Assembly: GCA_020055645.1 (NCBI GenBank)
Contig: CM034546.1
Coordinates: forward strand, 120,206,375 to 120,270,374
Length of the DNA stretch: 64,000 bases
Direction of reading: 5' to 3'
Source of the DNA: Tomocerus qinae
Lineage: Eukaryota > Arthropoda > Collembola > Entomobryomorpha > Tomoceridae
The notes under the pieces are model-generated. The model was not told where the DNA came from. It did no database searches and saw nothing but the letters and a program-made list of their open reading frames with translations. Every line of letters starts with the position of its first letter. Within the stretch, counting starts at the first letter, position 1. Made by a program: the position numbers and the translations under genes. Below are positions 1 through 22,950 of the stretch, piece by piece.

Positions 1-3000
1 TATCAGTGTACGTGCTAAAGTGGTAGTGCTCTAGGGCATTCTAGATTCTTTTCGTTTTATACAATAGTGCTTTTATGTCCTTGTAATCTTTTTTGTGTAG
101 TTATTGTGAACAGTGCTTTACAAAACCATGGTTTATTCCGTCTAATCCGTTTTTAGATACAAGTACTGATTATAACATAATTGAAACAAAATTGGCTATC
201 GAGCACTTTTATCTTATTCGCCATCGTTTTTTGAACAGGTACGTAGTGTCACATAACATTTTGTGTATAAAATAAAATGTATCTATCTTCATGGATTGAA
301 ACAGCGTATTACATTTAGTTTAATTATAATATAACTTCAGTAGTCTTATAAAACTATACATATTCCATTTTATACTGCTTGTAAACGTCGGAAACTTCCT
401 GGCAAAAGAGGAAAATGTATCCAATCATTAAAATAAGTTAACAATAAGAGTGATTATGCAAATAGCCATCCTTTCATAAAACTACTCAACAGAAAAAGTA
501 TGATTCACCTGAACTTCAACTTGAAGACATGCAACATAAAGCGTCTCTGCGACTTAGAATACTTAAGCGTGAAACAATATTTTTATTGGTTTCAGTATAC
601 TTAAAGAATAAAGTTTTTTTAAAGAAATAAAGCCGCTGTATTTGATGTGGTTGATATTATTGACCAAAGTCCATATTTTCTATACACGTGAACACTTAGC
701 ATGAAAATGATAATATCATTTGCTGCAGGTGATGTATCTCACAACATGTTATTGCAGTGTTATCCGGCTTTTTTAATGTGGCAATTATAGTAATCCAAAT
801 GGTGTACACTATCATTTCCTTAAAAAATGTAATTTATTTTTCGAGTTATCTGTAGGTACAGAAATATCATTCTTTGTTAGGTATTTGTAGTAGGAAATAG
901 GGAACTGCATTACACAACAGTAGTGTTTGGGTAGTATATAAAACAGATATCATTGATTCTTAATTTTATTTGCGATGCCAGAGATAGCCTTGTCTCTTTA
1001 TTTTTTTGATCTCGCCCTTTACCTACTTGACTATATACATGTTATTATTATACATCTATTGCATACCATGATGTAGGTAATTAGGTAGTTTAACTATAAA
1101 TTATTTACACAAGGAATGTATGAATGCCCTTTGGCAAGCGGAAAGCGTGCCAAAGGCCAAAAATATTGGAAAATAGTCATAGACTGGAATTTATACACAA
1201 ACTATAAATAGATATAAAGCTAAACTATATTGTATCAAGTGCAAAAATTAATTACAGATGCAGATGTATGGGCAAGGACTGCCACATCGGAGTATCTTAA
1301 TTATTACCTACTTAGGTAATTTACTAATTATTGAATAGCTACTTGATTATTTATATTTTTTTAAACTGTGCTTTTCAAAGGCATGTTACAAACAAATTAA
1401 ATAAGATTTTACATTGCATGATAAACATTGTGCGTTACAGGTAGCAATATTATTTTATATTCATGGGTTTGAAAAGTGGTTCATCTTGAGGAACAGGATC
1501 GAACAGTTTCATAAGTTCAATGTAATACATTCATCCCATTCTGTTTCCTCTATCTCTTGTTCTTCCATAGGTATATGCATTTCCTGCTTAGCCACACTAA
1601 CAGTTGTTATTGTGCATCTCAAAATTAACAGTTCCGATGGGGAAGCATTGAAAATCCAAAAAAATTACTGTCATGTAGGTAACCTTGTTATTTTAGCATT
1701 AGAATTCATCTTACTTCGCTTTCATGATGATTACACATATGGTTGTAGTCTAAAACTTAAATACTACTACGTGAAGTTAATTACCTTATTACAGAAACTA
1801 TGATAAAAATGCAAAGTACAAACACAGCACAAAATATTACCTTAATAGCATTGAGAAAATTTTTAAAATACCTATAGACAAAAGTCAAACCTGAAATAAA
1901 CTGTTATCCTATCTATAGAGAATATGCAGTAGGCATAAAAAGATCATTCGAGCAACTTCATTTAAACCAAAAAAAATAGTTACTAACATATTCACTGTTG
2001 GTGTGTATTACCTTTGCATTGTAAATTACCATAAATCTTAAATCTAAATAACGTTATTACGGAAGTTTGACAATAAGTAGAAATAAATGGTTACATTATA
2101 ATGGCTCCATGAAGGAGACTAGACAGTTAATTTCAATTTGCATTTCAAATTCGAAAACATGTTTGTGACTAGTATTTATTTACTACTTATGTAAAGTATG
2201 AAGTCACATGCATCTACATATATGTACACAAAAGGAAAAGCAATCCATGTATAATACAAAATATGTCTAACCTGTTTAAAGTATGTACCTACAGTTATAC
2301 AAGAACAAATAAGGCGCAATAGAAGTGGATGATTCACACTTTTACATCCTTTGATATAATACACTATCACTTGAGACATGTTGATCTTCTTTTGTAACAG
2401 TTCAATTTTTATACAAATTTTATATAGTAATAGTAAACGAGACAAGTGGAATTAATTTTCTCATTGGTGGTTAGAAAGGTTTGGAAATTTGCATTTATTC
2501 ACTCCCAAATATATTTTAAGCTTGATAGAACCATTAATAGTGACAAAGGTTTGGTTAAAATGATAAATACACGTGGGATATCCAAATAGTTGGATGTAGA
2601 TAGCTAACAAAGTTCCCAAGGACGATTTTCAATGAATAGGAACGATTGACAATGTTGTCCTTTGCCACCAACCCCATTATACAACGTATAAGAAGACGTA
2701 GCTAACATAATATTATTGTTATGTATGCATTCATTCATTCGAAACAGATAGCACTTTGTGGGTCAATCTAAACGTATACCCCATAATGTAACTTTTCACT
2801 GTAAAAATTAGGTCGCAATGCAAGTGGTCACTCCTTCCTTCGTCAGATTCAACCATACGTATACGACAAACACTACTATAGAATATACTACCTATTATAT
2901 GCCCATCTCTGTTGTGTGGTTGCCTATGTAGTTATCTAGCATGGAGAAACATATTATTATTGATAATTTTATACTGCCTAATTTGACCTTCATCTAATGA

Positions 3001-3303
3001 CTTATACATGCTAGGAAATCTTTGGATAACTGGTTATCCAACTCGATGTACTTCACTGGATTTCAAACCTAGACTATTGTTCATTCCTTTCCAGGTTCTA
3101 AAACGACGCATTTGACGATCTAATTCTCCATACTGTGGCATTCCCCAACGCAGTTCCAGTTTGAAGAAATACAAGTTTCACCCTGTTGCAAATATTCGTA
3201 CCTAATTACTTGTCATTCTAGTTCATGATCACTAGCAATTGTGATCATAGAGGATTTCTACACAAGAATTATGTTTATCAACTGAAAATTTTACCAATTT
3301 AAA
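1..3303. other. non-coding interval, no gene seen
   Basis: AT-rich sequence upstream of the acyltransferase gene. The open frames here are short, lack recognisable domains and do not join across splice sites. The only local structure I noted is a 9 bp inverted repeat, CCTTTGGCA at 1128-1136 and its complement at 1148-1156, with an 11-base loop. The last few hundred bases should contain the promoter and 5' UTR of the gene at 3304, but I see no clear TATA box. Confidence 0.6.
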
Positions 3304-11630: not shown

Positions 11631-11672
11631 TCAAACCACCCACAACATTGGGTTCCTATCGTTTCGCATTGC

Positions 11673-11694
11673 TTCGCATGATAACCAATGCGAA
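11673..11694 (+). repeat. left inverted-repeat copy with TTCGCAT hairpin
   Basis: The sequence is itself a hairpin: TTCGCAT, an eight-base loop, then ATGCGAA. Its first 21 bases recur in inverted orientation at 15748-15768. Another TTCGCAT copy lies a few bases upstream. Confidence 0.8.
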
Positions 11695-12385
11695 GTCCCT
11701 CCTAGTAGGAGGGGCCTATCAATACGAAACTGTGAGAAGTCATACGAATGCTTCTCATAAAAGATACATTCTGGTAAGAACGCCGCGCTCCAGGTCGAAT
11801 CTTGGAAAGTGGGTACATCACAAAATTGTTGATTGTGACGGACAAAAATTTTAAATGGTATTTATGGCTAATTACCACCTTTTCCTGTTTGTCGGATTTT
11901 GAAAATGACAACAACGTTTAAAGGGACTGAAAGTTACATCTGCTGGACATTTTCTACTACTCAAAGAAAAAACAGGTATTGTATTTTTTCTTCCCTTTTG
12001 TAGTAAATCATCAACAGACCCAAGAGTGCCTAAATAAGTTTTTCTGAATAACCGAGCGACAAAAAATTATTGAAATACTTTTTATTTTACAGTAAATAAT
12101 AGTTTTTGATACAAGAATGTCCATCTATAGCTCTCTAAGGATGTGGGGACGTGACCCCGGGGTGTTGAAGGAACGTTCTTTTTAATAACTGCTGGATTGG
12201 TAAATGTAACTCTACAATCGTATTTTCTTTATCAAACATTATCACAGTTTTCCACCACAGATCGCCAAAATACATCAAATGCAATAAAAGGACAAAATAT
12301 CTAATTACTTATTTCTTCATTGTATTTTGCAGCCGAAAACTAAAGTACAAAGAAGAAATATCTGCTGGTAAGTCAACAAAAGGAG

Positions 12386-12401
12386 AAAAAGTGCACTTTT
12401 T
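12386..12401. repeat. 16 bp perfect palindrome
   Basis: AAAAAGTG followed by its exact complement, within the first diverged tandem unit. A related AAAGTGCACTTTT occurs again about 50 bases downstream. Confidence 0.8.
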
Positions 12402-12709
12402 GCCGAGGTGTATAACAATTAATTAAATACAAAGTGCACTTTTCGTAGTTAATAAAATTCGGAGCAGATGACTAAAATAATACATTCACCTGAAAAAATA
12501 ATTTTTGTCATAATTTACAGGACTGGCTGCCTAATATGTTGGACTTTTGTGGGAATGTTTTTAGGAATCTGTAGACAACCTGAGTTCCCGCAGATGGCAC
12601 TTACAACAACAGTTATTTATAACCAAAAATGAAGAAGTTAACAAAAGTTACGTCTAATTTTTCTCTCAGTACAAATTCTTGGTACAGGATAGAAATTTTG
12701 GAATATTAA

Positions 12710-12737
12710 CGTAACAACGTTCCAGAACGTTGTTACG
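12710..12737. repeat. palindrome P1, 28 bp, 13 bp arms
   Basis: Arms of CGTAACAACGTTC and its complement flank a central CA. It is the first of four palindromes in register with the tandem units. Its centre TTCCAGAA differs from the TTCCGGAA of the others by one base, consistent with loss of a CpG. Confidence 0.9.
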
Positions 12738-13500
12738 AATAATATGCCGTTAGTGAATTGTACATTTTTAAATTATTTCTTATTTCAGAAAACGAAAACC
12801 AGATTTTCAGCTGTTTTGAAACTAGCTTTTTTTTGAAAACTGCTGGACGGGTTGTAATATTCTGTAAGGTAATAATAATTGCAATTTCCTCATCAAGATT
12901 GAGCATCACATTATTTCATCATAGTTAATTAAAATATATCATGGAAATAATGACAAAATATCTCATTAATTATTTACCTATTGTATTTTTGAAGGCAAAG
13001 ACTGAAGTACGAAAGAGAAATAATACTTGGTAAATTTACAAACGGGAATTATAACACAAGGTCATACCATTTAGTTATGGACACATCATTTGTTGTATAA
13101 AATGAAATTTGGAACAGAAAACTGAAACAACATCCAATTGATAAAATTTACTATTTAAATGTATTTACTCATTTACAGGACTTGCATTGACTGTTGTGAC
13201 TTTTGGGGGTTGATGAGAATTTGTGGACAACCTGAGTTCCATTCTATTAAAGAAACCTACCAAACCAATGATTTCAAACATTTTCAAAAACATGACCTTG
13301 ATTATCCATCTAATGACTTAAATTACATCTTATCTTAGGCTTATCGGAGATGGTGTCTACAGCAGCAAAAACTTATAATTAATGTCCAGGTAAATATATG
13401 GCTAGTGAAATAGAATTAAGCAAACTAAAAGTGTAGAAGACATCAAAAGTTTTCTCAGTACAAATTCTTAGTGCAAGATAGAAATTTTGTAATATTAGCA

Positions 13501-13530
13501 TCGTAACAACGTTCCGGAACGTTGTTACGA
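13501..13530. repeat. palindrome P2, 30 bp perfect
   Basis: TCGTAACAACGTTCC followed directly by its exact reverse complement, with no spacer. It lies 791 bases after P1. Confidence 0.95.
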
Positions 13531-14277
13531 AGTAATACATGCTGTTAGTGAATTGTACTTTTTAAATTATTTCTTATTTCGAAAACGAAAACCAGATTTT
13601 CAGCTGTTTTGAAACTAGCATCTATTTTGAAAACTGCTGGACGGGTTGTAATATTCTGCAAGGTAATAATAATTGCAGATTCCTCATCAAGATTGAACAT
13701 CACATTATTTCATCATAGTTAATTAAAATATATCATGGAAATAATGACAAAATATCTCATTAATTATTTACTTATTGTATTTTTGAAGGCAAAGACTGAA
13801 GTAAGAAAAGAGAAATACCTGATAAGTATGCAAAAGGAAATCATATCACAAGGTTATAGCAATTAATTGACAGAGAGGATTTGTTGAAAAAAATTAAATT
13901 TGGAACAGAGAACTGAAACAACATCCAATTGATAAAGTAATGTCTTTACTAATTTACAGGACTTGCATTGACTGTTGTGACTTTCGGGGGTTGATGAGAA
14001 TTTGCGGACAACCTGAGTTCCATTCTATTAAAGAAACCTTCCAGACCAACGATTAACTATTTGAAAAATTTTTGAAAACATGGCCTTGATTATCCATCTA
14101 ACGACTTGAATAACATTCCGGCAGTCTACCGTAGCAAAAACTTAAAATTAATGTCCAGGTACATATGTTGCTAGTGACATAGAATTAAGCAAACAAATGT
14201 AGACATAAAAGACATAAAAAGTATATTTAGTCAGAAGTAATTTTTAGTATGGGTTGGAAATGTAGAGTATTAATTTT

Positions 14278-14303
14278 GTAACAACGTTCCGGAACGTTGT
14301 TAC
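14278..14303. repeat. palindrome P3, 26 bp perfect
   Basis: GTAACAACGTTCC followed directly by its exact reverse complement. The sequence around it has diverged far from units 1 and 2, yet the palindrome core is unchanged. Confidence 0.95.
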
Positions 14304-15013
14304 GAAATAGTCCATCCGTTTGGTACGTAGTAGTTTACTTCAGAAAATGCTTTTAAATGCTTTTTTATTTCAGAAAACAAAAGCTAGATTTCAGCTAATA
14401 ATGATACAATCACAGGGGTTTTATTGGATCAAAAATATAAAATTGGATGGAAACTTACTTTTGGATACTGAAACTACCAACTACCCTACCAATGGGTTAA
14501 TTTGCTACAAGTCCTGCCTAAAATTTAAAAAGGTAAATTTTTGATTCTATTAACTACTGCAACTATTATCATGTTGCTTCGCTAATCTGTTATCTTTAGA
14601 ATTAAATATTTCATAAAGATAATTTCGTAAAGTTTGAATCCTTGAATTTTTAATTCGATAAAGTCTATTTTTTAACAAAAAATGCTTTTGCACTGTGAAT
14701 AATCGTTTTGTTATTCTGTTGGACCATGCTATGTAGTGTTTGTTTTAATGTCGTAAAATACATTAACTCATTTCTTTTTTTTCAGGCAAATGAATTTGCT
14801 CTAAGGATGTAATTACTACGATACAAAACTGAGTTTACGGAATCTTAACAAAGCAGAAAAGTTGGAGTCATCAATGGAATCTGATTTTAAAAAGTTACAG
14901 CAGGAATATGATTACATAATGTAGTAGCCTAGGTATTTATTTCAAAATTTCGTAATTAGCTTGCAGTTGTAAACTTGCTTTGATTTATAAAAATTATAAA
15001 ACAATTAGAGTAC

Positions 15014-15051
15014 ATGCAGTAAACAACATTCCGGAATGTTGTTTACTGCAT
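15014..15051. repeat. palindrome P4, 38 bp perfect
   Basis: ATGCAGTAAACAACATTCC followed by its exact reverse complement. Against P2 and P3 it carries a substitution and an inserted base in the left arm, and the mirrored changes in the right arm, so perfect symmetry is kept. Confidence 0.95.
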
Positions 15052-15747
15052 AATACCTACAATTATTTTGTAAAGTGTACATTCCATTTCTGGCTATTTT
15101 TTAATTCGCCGTGTAAATATATTATATGAAGTGAACTGTAAAATTTTAACACGTTTATAATTTAAGTACATGTTTGATACTTGTGACTATTTTAGATTAT
15201 CACACCGTTTTATTGGTTTTTGTATTTAAAAATGAAATGGACATTATTTGTTTAAAAAATTAGTATGAAATTCATAACTACCACTTAACTCAATACCTTA
15301 CTGTTATGCTTTTTTGTGCGATGTATTGTACTGTAAGTATTTTTAAAACTAAACTAAAGTATTTGTAAAAAATCAAGCTATTATAGTATGTTATTTTCTG
15401 TCTTATAATTTGGTGTTCAATTGGGTAGAAATGAAATGTGATGTAAAAATTATCAGCTGATAACCAAGTTGTTGTATTATGTAATTTGCTATCTTGTATC
15501 TGATCAGAACATAAAATATGAATTCCAAATAAATTTTTAATTTGTATATTGATAGTTTAATTTTGAAAAATAAATAACATTGATAATTCTATTAAAGTGT
15601 ATTTTATTCATTATTTAAATGTGGCACGCATTAGCATTCAATAACAAACGACCGCATCAACAGAGGTCGTAAGGATCATTGTATGCGAAAACGATGACGT
15701 TATTCGCATGTGAATACGTGCGAAGTGATGCGAGAAACGGACACAAC

Positions 15748-15768
15748 TCGCATTGGTTATCATGCGAA
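15748..15768 (-). repeat. right inverted-repeat copy, TTCGCAT-rich
   Basis: This is the reverse complement of 11673-11693. Within 15670-15810 the heptamer ATGCGAA or its complement, or a one-base variant, occurs at least six times. Confidence 0.8.
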
Positions 15769-15851
15769 ATAATACATCGGCGCAGTGGGCATTTGGCGAC
15801 GCCCACTTATGATGCGAAACATAATAACTGTTTGGTGCGGGCAACCCACTG

Positions 15852-20720: not shown

Positions 20721-22950
20721 ATTGAGTGGTATGAATAAGAATAAGTATTTACTACAAAGTAAAAAGTAATAGTAAAAGGTCTAGACTTGAAGTAAAAGGT
20801 AGAAGCAAAAGCATTTGCTTCAAATCGAATGAATAAAAGAAAACTTTTACTGTCAAGCAAATACTTTGCAATTGTAGTATTTACTTCTCATTTTGTACAC
20901 AACATGGCTACTATGACTCAGCCAATCAGAGACCAGCAACGAATCACACCTATACTCTTCAATTCACAAATGCAATTTCGTGGTCATGGATATAAGTAAC
21001 CGGTCAGAGTTATCTATGAGTTTCTTTAGAAAATTAATCGTGAATCCTACTAATCCTATTATTTTGCGTGGAGAAGTAAAAGGTGAAGTTGCTATCGGAG
21101 AAGCTTCAAATTTTTGAAGCAAATACTCAAAGTAGAAGTAAATTCAAGATGTTATTCATACCAAAATGTAGTATTTACTTCTAACGGTAGTAAATGCTTC
21201 ATGAAAATTAGAAAATACTTTTACTCCTAGATTAAGCATAAGCAAAAGTAATTGAGTTTACTAGAAGAAGAAGTGCCGATTTCAAAATCTGTATATGTAG
21301 GGATAAAATAAACAAAATTTTAGGGGTCAGTCAACAATTTTGGGATACCAAATGTGATTAAAAAATTAAATTGTAAAATGAATCGCTTCAGGTAGCAGTG
21401 GTGATCTCTTTTTTGGGCTATTAGAAAAAATGTTTGCTGCCATTGATCGCAAAAAAATCCGCACAGATATCAACAAAACTTAAATTCAGAGATTACTGTC
21501 GTCATCCACGAGTTCTGACAGGTGATTTAAAATTTGACCTAGGTCAAGCCCCTCTCTCTATGGTCCAAATTTTTTGTCATTAGCTAATGAAATTGCAGAT
21601 ATCCAAGACTTAAATTTATACGATTTCCAAAATGCATTTTAAGAGGTACCGTGAATAGAGAATATTATGCACTCATAAATAAAGAAATTAATATTGGGAT
21701 AAATGCAAATCTAAATCTTATTTGCATGGACATTTGAGGTATTGGAAATAACTTGTGAATTAAAACATGTAGCAATATCTACAGCTAAAATCTGGAAATT
21801 AAATTGAACATAGTCATTAAACTGAAGTTTCACGGTAAAGAGATTTTGTGTCACTTGAGTTGACTTTGAAAGCTTTATATCCATTTTGAAACGAAAGGAA
21901 TAAAAGGTTAATAATATAAGTTAAGGTTAAGGCCTAAAACAAATAAGATTCATTTTTAAAGGTTTAATCTTAAGTAATTTCCAATAACTCAACTATGTCC
22001 ATACAAATGAGGTTGCAATACGATTTAAATTTGGCATTCATCCTAGAGAGTTGCACGGGCACATGATACAGAATTTTCACGGGCGAGCACAGGCAGATCA
22101 AGGATACCCACGGGTGGGAACGGGCAGCCACGGGTAAATCGGGATGCTCACGGGCAGGCATGGGCTCATTTGCCACGGGCAGGAAAATTCATGCAGCTCG
22201 CGGGCGCCAGTATATACCCGTAAATATATATAGTAAAAAAGCCAGAAATTTTGTTTTTTTGTGTGCCCGGCCCGTGCTCATACTACAAATTTCTCACGGG
22301 CGGGCACGAGCACACAGCACAGAATTTTCACAGGTACAGGAGGGCAGGACACGGGCCAATCAAAGATGCTCACGGGCGGGAACGGGGAGGCAAAGACAAA
22401 TCCGAAAGCTCACAGGTGCACCGCCTAGGCGGTACGAGCGGGCATGGGCTCATTTTCTACGGGCACGGTATTCACGGTATTTGCTTCATTAAATCCTACC
22501 CCTTCAAATACATTTTGGAAATCGTATAAATTTATGTCATTATGTCATGGAAATCTGCAATTTCATTGGCTAATGACAAAAAAATTGGATTAATCAAAGA
22601 AGGGCTTGACCGAGGTCACATTTTGAATCACTGTCAGAAGAACTCATGGTGACGACTGTAATATAGACTACAAATATGACGGTCTACGTGGTTTACGGAA
22701 TTTCTGAATTTGAAAGAAAATGTAAAATATTATCTATTCAAACAGCAAATGTGCGCGGAAATAGTTTATGAAAATACCCCCAGGTCTGCAGTTGACCGAA
22801 AATCTCTATGGTAATTATTGGATTTTTTGAAATCGGCACTTCTTCTTCTAGTAAATTCAATTGCTAATATTTTTATTCATACCAAAGGAACCTTTTACTT
22901 CAAAAACTTTAAGTAAAAGCATAAGGTAGACCTTATTCATACCACTCAAT
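20721..22950. mobile_element. composite foldback element with terminal inverted repeats
   Basis: The 19 bp terminus ATTGAGTGGTATGAATAAG at 20721-20739 is matched exactly inverted at 22932-22950. A second inverted pair, 37 bp with one mismatch, lies at 21250-21286 and 22826-22862 around CTAGAAGAAGAAGTGCCG. A third pair covers about 21570-21650 and 22505-22585, around CTAATGACAAAAA. The left arm is about 930 bases, roughly 480 longer than the right, because 20740-21240 holds extra AGTAAAAG/CTTTTACT-rich sequence, including a partial internal copy of the terminus near 21155. No coding capacity is seen. The superfamily and target duplication could not be established. Confidence 0.8.
22046..22475 (+). 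repeat. GC-rich CACGGGC direct-repeat cluster in the foldback loop
   Basis: About a dozen copies or near-copies of CACGGGC, almost all in one orientation, lie in a GC-rich island within otherwise AT-rich DNA. The cluster falls into two related blocks, about 22046-22190 and 22290-22475. Each contains ACAGAATTTTCAC, a run of cacgggc-type repeats and GGGCATGGGCTCATTT-like sequence, indicating an internal duplication. Composition differs sharply from the flanks, suggesting a nested insertion. The long frames here arise from the lack of AT-rich stop codons and are not genes. Confidence 0.8.

Follow-up and report, generated by a model that had tools for sequence, protein, structure and literature searches.

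Why four long palindromes should recur in register, the last of them altered symmetrically in both arms, is the question raised by a 64,000-nucleotide stretch of the genome of the collembolan Tomocerus qinae (contig CM034546.1, positions 120,206,375 to 120,270,374; hereafter the window). These palindromes all sit within one transposon of the TRC/CACTA type, a non-coding derivative that shares its ends with a longer, coding element of the same genome. The reading preferred here, to which we give about an even chance, is that they are dispersed DNA-level dyads of a TRC/CACTA clade that would be recognised by an element-encoded protein. Each family would carry its own half-site, set head to head every ~0.3-2 kb along the element regardless of exon, intron and coding strand, and the protein would read the dyad as a dimer.

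The four palindromes, P1 to P4, first described in a sequence-only reading, were borne out with small corrections (Table 1): P1 is imperfect at its centre pair, and P2, P3 and P4 are perfect over 30, 26 and 38 bp. The two symmetric changes claimed for P4 are present. From P1 to P4 the centres are 792, 775 and 742 bases apart. A fifth site, P0 (CTTCAACACCCCGGGGTGTTGAAG), has one mismatch in the copy L041; in the window copy, and in L040, the copy closest to it, a deletion has removed 12 nt. The claim that the palindromes stand in register holds for the short, non-coding version of the element; it does not hold for coding relatives, where the sites are dispersed in otherwise different sequence. 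The 16-bp core pattern was found three times in the window and never in 100 shuffles. Shuffled sequence of 1.28 million bases gave 6 palindromes of comparable strength, and outside the element the window has a single one in 59,797 bases.

A family-specific core with matching arms

A search of the genome with both ends of the window element reached L051. This element of 8.4 kb has the termini of the window family and carries a transposase gene on the minus strand, and on the plus strand an exonuclease gene and a third gene. All genome-wide counts given here refer to this one genome. L051 carries nine palindromes of 26-60 bp (1047, 2251, 3174, 3520, 4801, 6127, 6837, 7521 and 8188; sites a to i), five of them perfect over the reported length and four with one mismatch. 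A second coding family is formed by L052 and L057, which share 99.4% identity over 8.7 kb; a 368-aa piece of their transposase is 66% identical to that of L051. Its nine palindromes, as counted in L057, have a CGCG centre (intact in six) where L051 has CCGG. Eight pass the threshold applied to L051; the ninth, L057r 8232, is weaker, with two mismatches.

Both arms of the nine sites give a core of AACRYNCCGGNRYGTT for family 1, with the half-site AAC-R-Y-N-CC (GAC at one site), and of CAACWYACGCGTRWGTTG for family 2, with the half-site CAAC-W-Y-A-CG. The genome search for the core, proposed as a check of the sequence-only reading, found it nearly confined to the elements. The family-1 pattern occurs at 60 sites (control 6). 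Among the 50 listed, 48 lie within elements and 46 of these are symmetric at the degenerate positions, while the two outside, C2:67077617 and C3:34961066, are both asymmetric there. All 18 sites of the family-2 pattern fall within four elements (control 0). Since the sites of one element share a family-specific core that is nearly absent elsewhere, selection for the dyad is favoured, and a core that is shared and can be switched argues for a reader acting in trans.

Palindromes of one element differ from one another in their arms and wherever the core is degenerate, and the two arms of each palindrome match. As a control, arms were swapped among the palindromes of an element. At the degenerate core positions the arms agree in 44 of 45 cases with both families pooled, against 40-44% with arms swapped. 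The figures are 26/27 for positions 3-5 of family 1 (40% swapped; reached by 0/20,000 swaps) and 18/18 for positions 4-5 of family 2, position 3 being always A (44% swapped; reached by 4/20,000). At arm positions 9-14, 50/54 are matched in family 1 (36% swapped) and 45/54 in family 2 (56%), and over positions 3-14 none of the 20,000 swaps attained the observed matching in either family. At positions 15-20 the matching continues in family 1 (34/54 versus 29%) but not in family 2 (17/54 versus 25%). Matching over free sequence indicates a structural requirement, arm-templated repair, or both: with arms that match even at variable core positions, the sites probably have to open as a hairpin or cruciform, or else replication templated on the opposite arm makes them perfect again after a strong core has arisen.

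The order and gene context of the sites match between the coding families. Eight of the nine sites correspond, with different letters that are mostly changed symmetrically; correspondence was assigned by order and gene context, as the flanking non-coding DNA is mostly unalignable. The clearest case is the transposase-intron palindrome, TATCCAACACACCGGTGTGTTGGATA in L051 and TATCCAACATACGCGTATGTTGGATA in family 2. No counterpart was found for L051 site 6127 in family 2 or for family-2 site 443 in L051. Eleven site comparisons (three of the window family with L051 and eight of L051 with L057, so that L051 enters all eleven) gave 189 pairs, of which 101 are unchanged, 44 have altered on both sides without loss of complementarity, 43 pair in one element only and one pairs in neither. 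Many of the 43 one-sided pairs lie beyond the shorter palindrome, because the arms were compared to the end of the longer one. Copy L044 was used in the P0 comparison because the window copy is damaged. The earlier claim that symmetry was kept while the sequence changed, made from P4, is thus strongly supported well beyond that palindrome.

How the symmetry is kept

Exons and introns were predicted from splice signals and open frames. In L051, site a falls in coding exon 2 of the exonuclease gene and b in its intron 4; c and d lie in the spacer between two convergent genes; e, with 38 nt, is part of a predicted 71-nt transposase intron; f, g and h lie between open-frame pieces and i beyond the third gene. 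Exon, intron and strand seem to have no influence on where sites are placed. Two-sided compensatory change is usually taken to prove an RNA stem; here it is found in DNA of all three predicted kinds, exon, intron and spacer. The internally symmetrical stwintrons of Hypoxylaceae, according to the accessible text of PMC8469720, are similar in that symmetric sequence fills small introns. They are related, spreading introns with terminal inverted repeats, whereas the palindromes of site e and its fellows differ from one another and also lie outside introns.

Folding of transcripts would select pairing and not sequence, whether the hairpins served to remove introns, to yield small RNA or to have the transcript protected or targeted by the Rrp6-like exonuclease. 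All six palindromes tried, folded as DNA, beat all 200 shuffles, one palindrome lies inside the short transposase intron, and the exonuclease gene and the palindromes are found in the same clade. Mismatches affect the centre pair, located in the loop of such a hairpin, in 4/18 sites, and 3/126 of the other core pairs (P = 0.005), an excess that fits a hairpin loop and equally the spacer of a dimer site. RNA hairpins are nevertheless an unlikely explanation. Sites are found in plus- and minus-strand genes alike, within coding exons as well as predicted introns, and also in the DNA separating genes, and pairing needs no core of fixed sequence. Only one of the seven off-centre mismatches is G-T on the plus strand, and that one is in a spacer. 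A known RNA family was rejected as well, as Rfam gave no match in the window at the gathering score; the best weak match, over P4, has 20 bits against 100. The distribution of the sites over predicted exon, introns and spacer, together with the single G-T mismatch, fits a role at the DNA level better than one in RNA.

At the DNA level, cruciforms or hairpins might be the substrate of an element-encoded nuclease or recombinase in excision or copying, so that structure and core are both needed. Such a substrate would account for the fixed half-site together with arm matching that reaches a long way out from the core (30 bp at L051 6127-6186), and for the presence of an exonuclease gene. It is very unlikely in our judgement: palindromes of 20-30 bp extrude poorly and, to our knowledge, internal hairpins are used in no known CACTA step.

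The arms could instead be without function and kept up by mutation. A palindromic core invites template switching, and copying of arm onto arm would create, lengthen and re-perfect palindromes. In the accessible text of PMC8794818 template switching is able to create and maintain perfect hairpins and double changes, and that of PMC6649704 puts it forward as one possible mechanism behind the palindromes in nematomorph mitochondrial genes, sites that can be gained and lost. The nematomorph case resembles the present one in its many perfect palindromes inside genes, kept perfect as the genes evolve; it differs in being mitochondrial and in that no common core is mentioned in the accessible text (PMC6649704), whereas core and places are shared here. 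Arms that vary between sites are also what local copying should give. Mutational upkeep alone is still rather unlikely, as it leaves unexplained the shared family-specific core, its near absence elsewhere and the matching places in two families; ordinary window DNA has only the one comparable palindrome, and the few recent changes seen are one-sided.

Of the two causes proposed from the sequence alone, selection for the dyad and conversion between arms, the first is therefore favoured, on the strength of the family-specific core. Conversion finds no echo in the one-sided changes of young copies, and over longer times templated double changes are possible. We take the symmetry to be kept by selection, probably with help from arm-templated mutation. 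The elements offer a natural test of whether palindromes are kept perfect by selection or by templated mutation.

Proteins that might read the palindromes

The best candidate for the reader would be the third gene of L051 and L052, which is transcribed opposite the transposase and in which a coiled-coil-like stretch and a BEN-like region were recognised by eye. Palindrome binding is known for BEN-domain proteins, also for Insv. BANP and NACC1 (NAC1) bind palindromes; for the third gene the likeness to BEN comes from its position and from a relative, not from Pfam. BANP has a coiled coil for oligomerisation and binds a CGCG palindrome (accessible text of PMC11472053), and by analogy it makes such a palindrome reader plausible. 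This relative is the gene of the related element L058 (C1:53396900-53398700), which Pfam identifies as BEN (1.4e-8 after splicing); a tnp2-type transposase match lies ~3 kb away from it, on the other strand. By its coordinates C3:26600421 has the same arrangement. Weak homologues of the third gene adjoin six other transposase places (E 0.002-0.025), and a relative at C1:55565473 (E 8e-8) adjoins no listed transposase place.

Alternatively the transposase itself may be the reader, or the Rrp6-like exonuclease, which is found near listed transposase genes only in the palindrome-bearing families. The exonuclease gene has five predicted exons and, by eye, a C-terminal CCHC knuckle (L051 730-2920; L052 minus strand 7649-5946). 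The L051 protein matches DNA_pol_A_exo1 (2.4e-28), with HRDC below the cut-off, and its nearest solved relatives are EXOSC10/Rrp6 (1.6e-14). Exonuclease matches occur at 86 places in the genome. In four cases a listed transposase place is no more than 3 kb away, each time in one of the two palindrome families, and the next nearest lies at 70 kb (distances to 72 of 75 transposase matches, the others adding only more parts of genes already counted). No listed transposase lies close to two more exonuclease places, a partial family-2 copy at C1:114091274 and a decayed copy on C11. The many further exonuclease relatives in the genome, many in open frames of 400-700 aa, are all but four away from listed transposase matches. 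A derivation of the window-family (1B) units from the exonuclease gene was considered and rejected, no DNA match being present apart from ends and palindromes. Between the convergent exonuclease and transposase genes of L051, adjoining palindrome c, there is a tandem repeat with units of ~47 bp (2915-3143; 94-base offset).

The benefit to the element would likely be self-marking over its whole length, opening chromatin or resisting silencing as VANC does for VANDAL, or assembly of the element for transposition. According to the accessible text of PMC5735166, the VANC/VANDAL system of Arabidopsis has a short motif that is family-specific, abundant in the DNA of its own elements, rare in other elements and different between families. 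This precedent shows that transposons can mark themselves through family-specific motifs, and by the genome counts the present motif is similarly almost confined to its own copies. The VANDAL motif is non-coding, tandem and in one orientation (PMC5735166, same text), whereas here single palindromes are dispersed, each with its own arms and some in predicted coding exons. VANC is an anti-silencing protein, and the likeness here is one of sequence motif only. A more specific form of the proposal is advanced tentatively and may well be wrong: cis-marking by a palindrome each ~0.8 kb, coding DNA included, with free sequence and enforced symmetry, the half-site and a required cruciform or hairpin being read by an element protein whose specificity would switch together with that of the sites as families diverge. 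With cores switched between corresponding sites of two families in the same genome, co-evolution of protein and site is directly testable, and the elements test whether animal DNA transposons carry a sequence-specific self-recognition comparable to plant VANC.

Recognition of the palindromes by an element protein has several results weighing against it. A plain dimer site has no need for matching at the degenerate positions or up to 20 bp further out. Among the 12 young copies 2/150 columns vary in palindromes and 151/4182 elsewhere, so that the lower variability of the palindromes is not significant (P = 0.18). Both substitutions in the palindromes of these copies are one-sided, and one-sided damage is also seen in the P0 deletion, in L059, and in L052 at the site equivalent to L057r 1308, where the core half is present and the right arm has three changes. 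Pfam BEN (PF10523) gave no match on the spliced C-terminal part of the third gene in either coding family, and profile comparison of the gene with the related BEN protein failed; a search of the PDB gave none by sequence and one chance-level profile match (E = 1). Homologues of the third gene also stand beside transposase families in which no such palindromes were found, so a BEN protein alone does not predict palindromes, and it was rejected as the sole explanation. The exonuclease gene does predict them, yet within what is one clade.

L059 has a stop codon and is 78% identical to L051. Its palindrome b is gone and palindrome a is broken by a 3-nt insertion, a state read as decay, although for a a gain in L051 is possible. 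Family 2 has a site in the predicted corresponding intron for b, which bears on loss in L059 versus gain in L051.

The more distant transposase relatives L053, L054, L055 and L056 (35-44% transposase identity), which from their proteins look like about two families, have no palindromes with either core in the 6-7 kb read of each. In this part of L053, L055 and L056 there is no palindrome of this strength at all, and the idea that every transposase relative has palindromes was rejected. L054 has a perfect 24-bp palindrome without the shared core at 2748-2771 (ATGGTATTTAACGTTAAATACCAT), near its transposase. The transposase frame of L053 and L055 is unbroken at the position of the L051/L052 palindrome intron. 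L056 has a break in the open frame at 2896-2960, probably a short transposase intron, which is placed like that intron and lacks a palindrome. No relatives were confirmed in viral contigs.

Ends, class and copies of the window element

At least 12 copies of the window family (L039-L050), all retrieved, are present in the 334 Mb genome. CCC is found at the termini of all 12 and of L051, and 2-bp target duplications of varied sequence flank 12 of these 13 elements, the exception being L050. Seven copies have three palindromes of the P1-P3 type, and five copies, shorter by ~710-800 bp, have two. Within the window element no open frame of at least 100 aa resembles a transposase.

In the literature, animal TRC elements, which belong to the CACTA superfamily, are marked by CCC termini and a 2-bp duplication (PMC1636069, PMC4298943, as far as accessible). 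SmTRC1, the TRCs of Aedes and Tribolium, and Spongebob of Hydra and insects share these marks with the present elements, whose transposase is probably, like theirs, of the Transposase_21 type, and the end CCCAGCCAACATTGAC of Spongebob closely resembles CCCACAACATTGAC in L051 (same sources). Transposase_21 matches are below the cut-off of 28.6 bits in both L051 (23.5 bits, E 3.5e-5) and L052 (22.1 bits), and DUF4218 is above its cut-off in both. The TRC motif [LVI]-D-x-[LM]-H-x3-L-G is fitted by PPDIMHAVYLG of L051 except at the first position; the relatives L054 and L056 have IDVMHGVYLG. Palindromes are unmentioned in the accessible texts on TRC elements (PMC1636069, PMC4298943), unlike the about nine per coding element, together with an exonuclease gene, found here. 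The type of element is thus already known, while the palindrome array, of which no description was found in the open-licence literature, points to a recognition system of the element's own.

Seen in the window alone, P1-P3 resemble fused ends of tandem units, and they might be a chance product or artefact: terminal repeats of a tandem mini-element fused head to head, or heat-shock elements. Both are extremely improbable. Fused terminal repeats were rejected, as the element ends in CCCACAAC and GTGCGGG and not in a palindrome half, and as the coding relative has single, dispersed sites. The sequence TTCCGGAA, which we take to resemble a heat-shock dyad, does not stand for a heat-shock element TTCnnGAA either: the letters are unconserved, position 3 of family 1 being C, A, G or T.

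Table 1. Features of the transposon, by position in the window
Feature	Position	Strand	Basis or remark
Non-coding TRC/CACTA-type DNA transposon, family 1B, 4203 bp	11639..15841	+	Ends CCCACAAC...GGTGCGGG; end-to-end alignment of 12 copies, unrelated flanks
Target site duplication CA, left	11637..11638		Flanking letters
Target site duplication CA, right	15842..15843		Flanking letters
Subterminal inverted repeat, left arm ATTGCTTCGCATGATAACCAATGCGA	11668..11693	+	Inverted-repeat listing
Subterminal inverted repeat, right arm	15748..15773	-	Inverted-repeat listing
Tandem units of ~770-795 bp, each closed by a palindrome	12740..14306	+	Repeat families; unit number varies among copies
P0 remnant ACCCCGGGGT	12154..12163		Full palindrome 24 bp, perfect in 9/12 copies
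P1, 28 bp	12710..12737		Single mismatched pair, at centre (CCAG)
P2, 30 bp	13501..13530		Perfect
P3	14273..14308		One mismatch over 36 bp; inner 26 bp, 14278-14303, perfect
P4, 38 bp	15014..15051		Perfect

Partial matches to the element ends occur at C1:132011981 and C1:137610299-137610799. Elsewhere in the window, at 22067-22529, overlapping open frames with internally repetitive translations lie in its most G+C-rich 2 kb step.
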